From positions 1-64,000 of the forward strand of contig JAIOYZ010000007.1 of the NCBI GenBank assembly GCA_021740845.1: a stretch of 64,000 nt of DNA. The letters are read 5' to 3'. The notes beneath the pieces are model-generated. The model made no database searches. It saw only the letters and a list, made by a program, of their open reading frames with translations, and was not told where the DNA came from. Shown here piece by piece: positions 37,476 through 44,214 of this stretch. Made by a program: the position numbers and the translations under genes. Source of the DNA: Bacteroidia bacterium (GTDB lineage: Bacteria > Bacteroidota > Bacteroidia > UKL13-3). Within the stretch, counting starts at the first letter, position 1. Each line of letters begins with the position of its first letter.

Positions 37476-37735
37476 GAGAACTATCCTGTTTAAAAAAATT
37501 GTATCTAAAATAATTATTCCCTCAAAATATCTAAATTCCTTGTTTCATTACAAAATTACATAAATAGATATTTGCGCTATTTAAATAATTATTTTGCAGC
37601 TTAAATATGTATTTTATAAAAGTGGGTTGCGTTTTGGGTGCTTATGCAAAATTATTTTTGCTTGATTTACTGAGGTTTATGTTTTAATATAAACAAAACA
37701 ACCACTCGCGTAAATAAAAGCACCATTTATATTGC
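37476..37735. other. AT-rich intergenic region upstream of the membrane triad
   Basis: The 319-bp gap between DUF4286 and the small membrane protein gene. It holds no convincing terminator, tRNA or ncRNA. A TATTTTGC-like stretch (near 37588) and an imperfect GCAAAA/TTTTTGC inverted repeat (near 37645-37660) are seen. The only clear signals are the promoter box and the short ORF listed separately at its end. Confidence 0.5.
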
Positions 37736-37794: not shown

Positions 37795-38073
37795 ATGCGA
37801 AACCAAAATCAAACAACAAACCTTCTAGAGACCCCAATGCAAAATTTCACTTTGAAATTGGGGCAAAGGGTTACAAATAGCATAAAATTTGGAATTCAAC
37901 ATGTACTCGATTTTGCTAAATTTAGCTATTTAGCCCTAGTCCCCATTCTGCTTTTATTTGCAGTATTTGAGATAAAAAGAATATTTACCATCGACATATT
38001 TCCAGGAATTGACACTCCAATAGACAAAGCCCAATATAAAGGAAAATACCAACTAGAATTAATTGAATTATAA
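37795..38073 (+). CDS. Small membrane protein A of the EIKxxFxIDxF pair
   Basis: 92 aa, family not recognised. One transmembrane helix (about 43-60, SYLALVPILLLFAVFEI) follows an N-terminal hydrophilic part of about 40 residues. The 19-residue segment after the helix, EIKRIFTIDIFPGIDTPID, is shared with the 61-aa protein after the next gene (10 of 19 identical). It lies 17 bp before the degenerate GT2 gene, so the three are probably one operon. Role unknown; perhaps an accessory subunit of the GT2-like protein (inference). Confidence 0.7.
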   Translation: MRNQNQTTNLLETPMQNFTLKLGQRVTNSIKFGIQHVLDFAKFSYLALVPILLLFAVFEIKRIFTIDIFPGIDTPIDKAQYKGKYQLELIEL

Positions 38074-38090
38074 CTTAATAGCGAATTATT

Positions 38091-39248
38091 ATGATACAAC
38101 TATTACTAATAACAATTCAAATATTTTTGGCTTTATATATTGTTAGTACTTTTTTCTTGGTGCTAATATATTACCTTAAAAATACAAATGTTTTAAACAA
38201 ACCTAATTCCAAAAGGGTTTCGGTTTATCAAGAAAACCATATAGCAATTGTTTTTAACAACTATTCAAATGAAAATGAACTGCTAAGCCAAATTCAATTT
38301 TTAAACCAGCAAGAATATAAAAATTATTCAGCCTATTTTTTTGTAGATGGCCCAATAGTTCAAAGCAATAATTACTCTCATATTAGAATAATTAGACCAC
38401 AAACTAAAAAGTTCCAATTCTTAGGCCTATTAAACTTAGTCAAAAACTATTTTGATGAAACACCTGCTGCGGTTTTAATAATTAATAGTAGTTCAAAAAT
38501 TTCCGAAGATTTTCTGTTTAAAATGAACCAACAATTATTGCTCGGAAACCAAGTTGTTCAATGCAAAATACAGGTTGAAAATCATGATGAAATCCCCATT
38601 AACTACCAAGGTTTTGCTAAGACCTTTTTTAACCTGATTGATAGAGAGGCAATGCAAGCAAACGGACTATCAGCCACACTATGGAACCAAGGTTTTATGA
38701 TAGAAAACAAACTGTTTCAAGAGTTGAATTTTGAAAAATATCCTAAAAATGTCAAAGCTTTACAAGCAGATATTATTTCTAGATCGTACAAAATTTCATA
38801 TGAATCTGAGGCAAAAATAAAAGAAATCGGTTTGAACCAAGAAGAGTTTATTTCTAATAAGATAAGAGGCATTGACCATTATTTTTTCAACTTAAGAATT
38901 GGGTATAACCTTCTTTCTGAAGGGATTAAGAATCCTAATATTGACAAAATAATTTTTGGTTTTAACTATTTAAGACCACCAATATACTTATTGTTTATAT
39001 CCTCAGTTCTACTAGTAATTATCGATTTGTTATGGCTTCAAAACTTGCCTTTTTTTGGATGGGTAGCAGCAACAGGAATAGTTGTAAGCATAATTACATT
39101 ATTTCATCCTTTTAGAATAATGCAAATACTTAAGCCATTTACTAAATCATTAAAAGAAATTAGAAGCCAAGAAAAGGTGTTTACCAAGAAGCAAAACGCA
39201 AGCTACATTTTTAATAATTCATGTTCAACCACTATAAATAATAATTAA
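38091..39248 (+). CDS. Degenerate GT2-like membrane protein
   Basis: 385 aa. One N-terminal helix (about 2-25), a GT-A-like cytoplasmic domain (about 45-290) and two C-terminal helices (about 297-345) give the outline of a membrane GT2. The catalytic signs are weak: where a DxD is expected the chain reads IINSSSKISEDFL, and no QxxRW block is seen (FFNLRIGYNLL instead). It may be a pseudoglycosyltransferase or a very divergent one. It lies between two small related membrane proteins and probably forms a complex with them (inference). Confidence 0.65.
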   Translation: MIQLLLITIQIFLALYIVSTFFLVLIYYLKNTNVLNKPNSKRVSVYQENHIAIVFNNYSNENELLSQIQFLNQQEYKNYSAYFFVDGPIVQSNNYSHIRIIRPQTKKFQFLGLLNLVKNYFDETPAAVLIINSSSKISEDFLFKMNQQLLLGNQVVQCKIQVENHDEIPINYQGFAKTFFNLIDREAMQANGLSATLWNQGFMIENKLFQELNFEKYPKNVKALQADIISRSYKISYESEAKIKEIGLNQEEFISNKIRGIDHYFFNLRIGYNLLSEGIKNPNIDKIIFGFNYLRPPIYLLFISSVLLVIIDLLWLQNLPFFGWVAATGIVVSIITLFHPFRIMQILKPFTKSLKEIRSQEKVFTKKQNASYIFNNSCSTTINNN

Positions 39249-39258
39249 AAGCACTCAG

Positions 39259-39444
39259 TTGAACTTGGTTAATGATAATAGAAATACGATATGGTCTATT
39301 TTAAAACTCCTGTTAAAAGCTGTTTTCTTTTTGCTATTAGTGATGGAGATTAAGCATAATTTTGAAATTGATGTTTTCCAATCTTTAGACTTCCCTTTAG
39401 ACAATTTCTATTATGCAATCAAGGAAAAAATGGGGCTTCCCTAA
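39259..39444 (+). CDS. Small membrane protein B of the EIKxxFxIDxF pair
   Basis: 61 aa, family not recognised. The start is TTG; there is no ATG before the membrane helix (about 12-29, LLKAVFFLLLVM). EIKHNFEIDVFQSLDFPLD after the helix matches small protein A upstream, and the N-terminal part is shorter. It begins 10 bp after the GT2-like gene and overlaps the 3' end of rpoN, on the other strand, by 4 bp. Confidence 0.65.
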   Translation: MNLVNDNRNTIWSILKLLLKAVFFLLLVMEIKHNFEIDVFQSLDFPLDNFYYAIKEKMGLP

Positions 39445-41534: not shown

Positions 41535-41868
41535 TTCTTGTTTTTACAGTATTTAACTGACAATCAATACAAATATATAGTTAAAAAATCCATTAAAGCC
41601 AACAATTAATGTAAAAAAATAAAAAATACATGTTAATTGTATGTTTTATTAGTCAGTTTAAACCAAAAAAAACACTATTAAAAACAATGCATTTCTAGAT
41701 TATTCCTACTCTAATTTTTTCATTAAAATTTTTAATTTTCTTTAATAAATCATACTTTTAAATAGGTTGAATTACAATTGAAATTCCCCCTTAACAATTT
41801 CAATTTCATCCTGTTTTGAATATTAGCATACAATGGTTAACTTGCCGTCTTTGTTTAGAAAATATTAT
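41535..41868. other. AT-rich intergenic region with an inverted repeat
   Basis: 334 bp between the WG-repeat and M6 protease genes, which diverge here. Nothing coding is seen beyond a 12-codon upstream extension of the protease frame. It holds a 9-bp inverted repeat ATTGAAATT/AATTTCAAT (41777-41785 and 41796-41804) with a 10-nt loop, which could be a regulator site or hairpin. No clear -7 box for either gene was found. Confidence 0.45.
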
Positions 41869-44214
41869 ATGAAAAAAATAGTAACAATAGCCATTTTAAT
41901 AGTTTCCTTCTTTCCTAGTATAGGTCAAAATTCAAGGTCTAACTGCCCAGTAAAAGAAGAAGTTTTTTTAAGAAACAATCCAGATGGAAGTCCATTAACT
42001 CTCAGTGTATCAGGAAATGAAATGGTTCAGTACTTTGAGACCTTGGATGGGTTTACTGTATTAGAAAGAAAAGATGGTTTTTATGAGTATGCCATTTTAG
42101 ATTCCTCAAATAACTTAATAGGCTCTGGTCAGATAGCAACAAATAGTAATCCATTTTTAGGCAAAAACCGTAGAACACATTTAAGGTATAGTGCTCAACA
42201 AATGGAGACTATTTCATCAGTTTTTTATCAAATAAATCCAGAAAACCAGAAAAAAGCTGGAGGAAATCCATTTCCATCAACTGGAAGAAGAAAAGTTTTA
42301 GCGCTTTTAATTGAATATCCCGACCTTTCTGCAACATTACCAAAATCGAATTTCGATTCAATGATGGTAAAACCTAATTACAATGGTACAGGCTCGTTTA
42401 GAGATTATTATCTTAAAACCTCCTTTAACCAATTAGAATTAAATGTTGATGTACATGGTTGGTATATGGCTGAAAGTGGTTTTATGAACTATGGAAAATC
42501 AAATGCTAGTTATATTACCAACGTCGGAAAATTAGTCAAAAGAGCCGTATTATCAGCAGATTTGGATGGGGTTGATTTTTCAAAATACGACAATGATTCC
42601 GATGGTTATGTTGATGGAATTATAATTATGCATGCAGGTATTGGCGCAGAAGAACAAAGTGCTCCCTTAGCAAATAACAATATTTGGTCGCATAGATATA
42701 ATTTAAGCAACACAGGCAACTCAGTGGTTGTTGATGGAGTAGTTGTGGATTCATATGGAATTTTTCCGGAAAAACGTTATAATGGTGGGGCTTTATCACA
42801 GGTTGGCATTGGTGTATTAACTCATGAATTTGGCCATATTCTCGACCTTCCCGATTTATACTCGACCAATAGCAAGGGTGAAGGTGCTGGTAATTTTGCA
42901 AACATGGCAGGTGGCCCATGGTTAAATAGTGAAAAAACTCCTTGTATGCACGACGCTTGGAGCAGAATTCAAATGAACTGGCTTGAACCAATAACCATAA
43001 GCGCAAATGGAACCTATACCATTCCAAAATCCTTGGTAGACAGTAATTTTGTTTATAGAATAAACACTAGTAGGCCAAATGAATATTTCTTACTTGAAAA
43101 CAGGCAAAAAAAGGACTTTGACAAATATTTGCCAGCCAAAGGTTTGGCCATATGGCATATTAATACCAACAAAGCAAAACTTCTTTCTAATTCTAGCTCA
43201 AACAGTGTAAATACTGATACTAGTGCTTATGGGCTCGCCTTAAAACAAGCTGACGGGAGAACTGATTTAGAAAAAGGAAATAACAGAGGCGATGGTGGCG
43301 ATTTATTTCCAGGAACTACCAATAACAGAGGTTTAAATTCTTATACCAATCCAAATACTTTATTGCAATACAAAGTTGGGGGTGAAAAATTACCATCGAA
43401 TTTAATAATTAATAATATTACCCAAAATCCTGATAGTTCAATAACCTTTACTATTGGAAGCGACCCTACAGCTGGATTTGATGCTATTCCTTCTAAAGGT
43501 TGTTCACCTTTGCCCGTGAATTTTAATAATGTATCTGCTTTTGCCTTTAGCTATTTATGGAAATTCCATGATGGAACAACAAGTACAGAGGAAAACCCAT
43601 ATAAATTGTACGATTCAGCAGGAAATTTCCCAGTAACTCTTTATGTTTTGGATTCATCAAATTCAATTGTTGATACAAACATTCAAACCATAGTCGTTGA
43701 TCCATCACCCATTTCAGATTTCACTGTAAATAGAGGAGATAGCAACACTTTTCAATTTACCAATAATTCTATAAATGCTCTATATGTTGTTTGGAGATTT
43801 GGTTCAAACCAAAGTTCTACTCAAGCAAACCCAACTTATAAAATTAGTGGTACAGAGGATGTACCATTTATGCTGATTGCTTACTCCCAAAATCAATGTA
43901 CAGATACAACCGTTGGAGTAATGAGTTTTTGGGCATTAGGTTTACCAACCAACAATAATTTAGCAGGTGCCATTACATACCCGAACCCATTTGACAAAGA
44001 ATTGAATCTCAAACTTCAATTAAAATCCTCAGACAAGCTTAATTTATCAATATTGAATTTGTTAGGAGAAACTATTTGGCAAAAGGAAAATTTGTCTGTT
44101 GAATCAGGAGAAAATGTAATACAAATTCCAATTGAACAGTTGTCAAATGGCATGTACTTACTTCAAATCAAAGGCAATGATTTTAACAAAATATTAAGGG
44201 TAACTAGCAAATAG
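41869..44214 (+). CDS. Secreted M6 (immune inhibitor A-type) metalloprotease with PKD and T9SS domains
   Basis: 781 aa from the ATG at 41869 (MKKIVTIAILIVSFFPSIGQ signal); the upstream ATG adds 12 residues before the signal peptide. The protease domain has VDGIIIMHAGIGAEEQSA and the zinc site HEFGHILDLPD (about 319), then NMAGGPW. A PKD-like domain (about 540-620) and a T9SS tail (about 700-781, TYPNP, ending ILRVTSK) follow. It is exported and cleaves extracellular proteins. It is upstream of comF, with 20 bp between them. Confidence 0.9.
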   Translation: MKKIVTIAILIVSFFPSIGQNSRSNCPVKEEVFLRNNPDGSPLTLSVSGNEMVQYFETLDGFTVLERKDGFYEYAILDSSNNLIGSGQIATNSNPFLGKNRRTHLRYSAQQMETISSVFYQINPENQKKAGGNPFPSTGRRKVLALLIEYPDLSATLPKSNFDSMMVKPNYNGTGSFRDYYLKTSFNQLELNVDVHGWYMAESGFMNYGKSNASYITNVGKLVKRAVLSADLDGVDFSKYDNDSDGYVDGIIIMHAGIGAEEQSAPLANNNIWSHRYNLSNTGNSVVVDGVVVDSYGIFPEKRYNGGALSQVGIGVLTHEFGHILDLPDLYSTNSKGEGAGNFANMAGGPWLNSEKTPCMHDAWSRIQMNWLEPITISANGTYTIPKSLVDSNFVYRINTSRPNEYFLLENRQKKDFDKYLPAKGLAIWHINTNKAKLLSNSSSNSVNTDTSAYGLALKQADGRTDLEKGNNRGDGGDLFPGTTNNRGLNSYTNPNTLLQYKVGGEKLPSNLIINNITQNPDSSITFTIGSDPTAGFDAIPSKGCSPLPVNFNNVSAFAFSYLWKFHDGTTSTEENPYKLYDSAGNFPVTLYVLDSSNSIVDTNIQTIVVDPSPISDFTVNRGDSNTFQFTNNSINALYVVWRFGSNQSSTQANPTYKISGTEDVPFMLIAYSQNQCTDTTVGVMSFWALGLPTNNNLAGAITYPNPFDKELNLKLQLKSSDKLNLSILNLLGETIWQKENLSVESGENVIQIPIEQLSNGMYLLQIKGNDFNKILRVTSK

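Follow-up and report, generated by a model that had tools for sequence, protein, structure and literature searches.

A GT2-like membrane protein without catalytic motifs, encoded between two related single-helix proteins in Bacteroidia

Within the window, the 64,000-nucleotide stretch of a Bacteroidia contig that was analysed here, a GT2-like membrane protein is encoded between two small proteins, A and B, that are related to each other. Comparison with its relatives, together with a predicted structure, showed that the GT2-like protein descends from a sugar-adding enzyme and that the catalytic residues were lost across a whole clade. We propose, tentatively and with slightly less than even confidence, that its present role is that of a non-catalytic scaffold, joined with A (and B) in a complex of the inner membrane. 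The triad had been noticed in a first-pass annotation of this DNA; that observation was confirmed and extends beyond the window, to a clade of 10 genomes and to a second triad in G757.

The three open reading frames are all on the + strand and are separated by gaps of 17 and 10 bp, the tight spacing that had been claimed for them. The locus is flanked by DUF4286 and rpoN (window; G000), and the B gene shares 4 bp at its stop end with the 3′ end of rpoN. Its features are as follows.

37795..38073, + strand: small single-TM protein A, 92 aa; an N-terminal tail and a single hydrophobic helix precede EIKRIFTIDIFPGIDTPID
38091..39248, + strand: pseudo-GT2, 385 aa; TM helix at the N terminus, GT-A-like domain that lacks DxD/QxxRW, interface and TM helices at the C terminus
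38481..38495, + strand: degenerate metal-binding site of the GT2-like protein, INSSS (aa 131-135) instead of DxDN
38856..38870, + strand: degenerate QxxRW site of the GT2-like protein, NKIRG (aa 256-260) instead of QRxRW
39259..39444, + strand: small single-TM protein B, 61 aa, TTG start; second member of the A family, long diverged from A; orthologue in G757

A promoter shared by the three genes had also been suggested, and this was not borne out: the Bacteroidota-type promoter pattern at 37633-37660 occurs 8 times in the window versus about 11 times expected by chance, so it is no commoner than chance. Elsewhere in the window, positions 41833-44214 (+ strand) encode a protein of 793 aa that is probably secreted; it carries an HEFGH motif of the metalloprotease type, and its C terminus resembles that of sorted secreted proteins. 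The related records come from Bacteroidota MAGs, several of them from ponds or lakes (e.g., JAIYCU010000033, from a pond, and NKJG01000001), and from the sources of these relatives we infer a freshwater habitat for the window genome.

Descent of the GT2-like protein and loss of its catalytic motifs

The 385-aa protein of the window gave no Pfam match when searched alone. In six further genomes of the genus, the place between DUF4286 and rpoN is occupied by an orthologue with 39-46% identity, and four of the seven genus-level orthologues matched PF13632 in a Pfam search (best E = 4e-5). More distant degenerate copies are present in G757, at the same site, and in G027 and G770, at another site. 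AF2 prediction with the 7 orthologues only yielded a poor model (pLDDT 56.5), which was replaced by one based on a 27-row alignment; the latter model has a pLDDT of 82.6 and a pTM of 0.77, and since its alignment includes catalytic relatives, it may be pulled towards the GT2 fold. The best PDB folds found for this model with Foldseek were hyaluronan synthases, PcManGT, and the cellulose synthase BcsA, with E values of 1e-7 or better. The PF13632 and Foldseek matches together give the protein GT2 sequence similarity and a predicted GT-A fold.

The degenerate proteins form a clade of 10 genomes in three genera, which occupies one side of a tree branch with 98/95 support; the G757 protein sits on a very long branch, and its position in the tree is unsure. 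DxD was found in none of the 10 clade members versus 22 of 23 catalytic relatives, and QxxRW (scored as QxxxW) in 1 of 10 versus 23 of 23, while the STKxKS nucleotide motif is gone from all 10. The window protein has INSSS at the DxD metal/nucleotide-sugar site and NKIRG at the place of the Q(Q/R)xRW acceptor motif, in agreement with the earlier remark that neither motif could be recognised. As motifs are lost in all ten members, the degeneration is not sequence drift confined to the window, and the pseudo-glycosyltransferase surmised from this one protein is a property of the clade. This clade-wide loss, in combination with a model that matches hyaluronan and cellulose synthases, supports the designation pseudo-GT2.

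Catalytic GT2s of the same bacteria (G000:C29, G015:C30, G018:C52, and G027:C8) belong to the same protein family and have the same length. Unlike the pseudo-GT2, they keep DxDN and QRx(R/K)W (FEDGN and QKAVW in the G034 copy) and have no A or B beside them, although the G027:C8 and G034:C1 copies follow DUF4286, as the pseudo-GT2 locus does. The G034:C1 gene (L141:6719-7948), with FEDGN and QKAVW, after DUF4286 and without A, is a possible intermediate towards the degenerate clade.

A family of single-helix proteins at several loci

A (EIKRIFTIDIFPGIDTPID) and B (EIKHNFEIDVFQSLDFPLD) are identical at 10 of 19 positions and share the motif EIKxxFxIDxFxxxDxPxD, which in both proteins follows a single hydrophobic segment, as had been pointed out. 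A profile built from A only retrieved B among the 417 ORFs of the window at E = 2e-11, with the next-best ORF at E = 0.46, and chance similarity of the two proteins was therefore ruled out. Both conform to a family pattern of one hydrophobic helix, directly E-x-K, and then ID and P-x-D; across 24 diverse members, its E, its K, and its final D never vary. The charges around the helix (mean K+R 3.1 on the N side versus 1.9 on the C side; D+E 2.6 versus 4.7) suggest an N-in/C-out orientation in the inner membrane. Neither Pfam nor NCBIfam gave a significant match for any of 27 family members, and a PDB sequence search provided no name for the family.

Profile searching detected members in 29 of the 64 genomes of the taxonomic family, in 4 of its 14 genera, and up to four in one genome; in a sample of 395 genomes from the class, members outside that taxonomic family turned up in only three (G112, G161, and G356). 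The genes sit at fixed loci. Type 1 is A, type 2 lies beside genes for a 100-aa membrane protein and TlpA-like / M1 peptidase proteins, and type 3 lies between the adenine deaminase gene (ade) and a DUF4175-like gene; further members adjoin ftcD-like, murB, and response-regulator genes. The small proteins seem to belong to one microprotein family, with a particular member, and particular neighbours, at each locus. A tree built from the 58-column core clusters the members by locus and separates B from A; the short sequences keep its support modest. That B arose as a recent duplicate of A is not supported, since A groups, again at modest support, with members from other loci to the exclusion of B. 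A and B appear to be anciently separate members of one single-TM family, with their homology established and their separation modestly supported.

Two further proteins were noted in this survey. G161:C30 (L058:1483-1926), from a distant taxonomic family, encodes a 147-aa family member that is much extended at its N terminus; a DivIC-like gene lies immediately upstream of it. Most type-2 small proteins are adjoined by a conserved membrane protein of about 100 aa (MLLTIFxILLxINxIGFMNRRRAW) with no significant Pfam family (L067:1009-1311, - strand; similar in L039-L046, L049, and L052).

Exopolysaccharide loci were also seen in these genomes. G000:C29 (L164:2815-14236) holds a Wzx/Wzy/Wzz cluster that includes catalytic GT2s in tandem, relatives of the pseudo-GT2, and a second, Wzz/Wzy/OEP locus is located at G000:C34:116533-118707 (L200:9498-11708, - strand), with loci of the same kind in G022, G034, and G757. 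Among the g5 genomes, this second locus and the small family coincide exactly: six have both and four have neither. Across the whole taxonomic family, the match between small family and exopolysaccharide locus is imperfect and confounded with genome size, and for the latter reason the association was set aside.

Pairing of the genes and maintenance of the GT2-like gene

The gene for A precedes the GT2-like gene by 6-29 bp in G000, G002, G003, G018, G757, G027, and G770, which represent three genera, and it also precedes a truncated GT2 in G015; G027 and G770 keep the pair together at a different genomic site. G757, from a second genus, has the full order DUF4286-A-GT2-B-rpoN at the site that corresponds to that of the window; its B orthologue (L138:2876-3094, - strand) has an ATG start and a 13-bp overlap with the GT2-like gene. 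No genome other than G000 and G757 is known to contain B, and a search of the 500-bp gap downstream of the GT2 gene in G018 found no remnant of it. The recurring A-GT2 order and the G757 triad support the view that A and the GT2-like gene form a functional unit and that the triad is old.

This pairing is not obligatory. A is present without the GT2-like gene in G024, G035, and G758, with no copy at the site in the first two or beside the A orthologue in the third, and the GT2-like gene is present without A beside it in G005, G008, and G010; thus, neither needs the other everywhere. The first-pass picture of two paired accessory subunits therefore held in part. The A-GT2 pair is conserved in three genera and the triad recurs in G757, but the small proteins are not dedicated to the GT2: A stands alone in three genomes and its family occupies other loci that have no GT2-like gene, which contradicts exclusivity.

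For the pair G010 and G008, the dN/dS of the GT2-like gene was 0.11 over 382 codons, versus 0.05 for a catalytic GT2 paralogue and 0.06 for rpoN, and the GT2-like copies evolve faster than the catalytic paralogues. Their best-conserved blocks are NLIDREAxxxxGLSA and KIIFGFNYLRPP, outside the donor site; the blocks NLIDREAMQANGLSA and KIIFGFNYLRPPIYL of the GT2-like protein, on the acceptor/membrane side, are best conserved and the donor site is variable. Purifying selection and the conservation of non-donor blocks indicated that the gene is maintained, probably for something other than donor-sugar chemistry. A plain decaying pseudogene is not supported by a dN/dS of 0.11, yet erosion is evident: in G015:C3 (L018:1498-2142) only 214 aa are left, the middle and membrane part being lost, in G757 the middle part is heavily altered, and the missing copies in G024, G035, and G758 belong here as well.

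Such erosion bears on an alternative in which A is an independent protein of the multi-locus family, for example a stress or envelope regulator, and the degenerate GT2 is a slowly eroding passenger in its operon, not a partner. The truncation in G015 beside an intact A and the strong alteration in G757 fit this explanation, as do the genomes with A alone, the family members at loci without any GT2, and the tighter constraint on A (dN/dS 0.025 for G035 versus G024, where A stands alone). We nevertheless consider it rather unlikely, because the GT2-like gene is under purifying selection, is found together with A at a different locus in G027 and G770, and persists without A in G005, G008, and G010, the last of which argues that it has a function of its own.

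Still less probable, in our judgement, is that the GT2-like protein remains an enzyme with altered chemistry, either a metal-independent transfer via the acidic residue of the general-base motif (N/S)DKxLQ or some other reaction on a lipid-linked substrate. The DK of this motif is kept in 8 of the 10 clade members, and the acceptor/membrane-side blocks are those best conserved, but DxD and the nucleotide-site lysine motif are lost in 10 of 10 members and QxxRW in 9 of 10; moreover, DK is lost in G000 and G757, and the window protein itself carries VKALQ. Chance juxtaposition of unrelated ORFs, for which one could cite the short ORFs and AT-rich DNA, is refuted by the orthologous gene order in several genomes and genera and is further opposed by the homology of A and B and by purifying selection.

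A candidate scaffold in an inner-membrane complex

The reading we prefer is that the three genes would be co-transcribed as an operon for a complex of the inner membrane. Its GT2 would be a membrane-bound protein of the processive-synthase type that lost its metal and nucleotide-sugar binding sites and was retained as a non-catalytic scaffold or regulator; our analysis suggests, in other words, that the fold of a former enzyme has been put to use as a structural or regulatory subunit. Single-pass A, plus B in some genomes, would pack against the TM helices of this protein, with a conserved acidic segment, EIKxxYxIDxFPGxDxPxD, exposed to the periplasm. As PgaC/PgaD and DPM1/2/3 suggest by analogy, the small subunits would probably stabilise or regulate their membrane partner, and the complex would most likely modulate envelope polysaccharide or the traffic or handling of lipid-linked sugars, each small-family member serving its own partner. 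The term "envelope system", used in the first reading of the triad, is plausible.

Precedents exist for both parts of this proposal. PgaC activity depends on the small subunit PgaD (PMC8461298), DPM2 is common to two enzymes (PMC7728079), and IRX9 acts without catalytic residues (PMC4132061); these cases show regulation of GT2s by small membrane subunits, and GT folds that function without catalysis. By such analogies, the triad resembles the known systems of a GT2 plus a small membrane subunit, but with a degenerate GT2. No papers on an A-GT2-B system were found in the literature.

As in PgaC-PgaD (IcaA-IcaD type), a membrane GT2 fold is encoded beside a small integral membrane protein without other known homology. 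In contrast to PgaCD/IcaAD, the GT2 here is catalytically degenerate and does not qualify as a catalytic subunit, the gene order is small-GT2-small, and the neighbours are DUF4286 and rpoN, with no deacetylase or outer-membrane export/porin gene; the small proteins have one hydrophobic segment only, and searches of 27 family members against Pfam and NCBIfam gave no significant match, PgaD and IcaD included. The DPM1/DPM2/DPM3 complex likewise combines a GT2 protein with two small membrane subunits, and the sharing of DPM2 parallels the multi-locus small family. DPM1 is catalytic, whereas the GT2-like protein has no catalytic motifs, and DPM2 has two predicted TM regions; compared via Pfam, the small proteins match no family, DPM2 and DPM3 included. 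IRX9, one of the non-catalytic glycosyltransferase homologues, also has a GT fold without its catalytic residues, but it is a plant GT43 that works beside an active GT, and no active GT2 is encoded in the operon described here.

A wider version of our proposal is more speculative, and we think it unlikely to hold as a whole: the single-pass microproteins would be locus-specific subunits of several inner-membrane proteins (the pseudo-GT2, the DUF4175-like protein, and the 100-aa protein), and the A-pseudo-GT2-B trio would be a dead synthase turned scaffold or gate for envelope polysaccharide machinery.

If the scaffold reading is true, the locus would illustrate clearly, for bacteria, how a processive-type GT2 became a non-catalytic subunit while its membrane part and small partners were kept. 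The work also brings to light a family of small proteins that is in neither Pfam nor NCBIfam; its members, located at several fixed loci with their own neighbours, offer a testable way into the roles of single-helix microproteins in membrane complexes.
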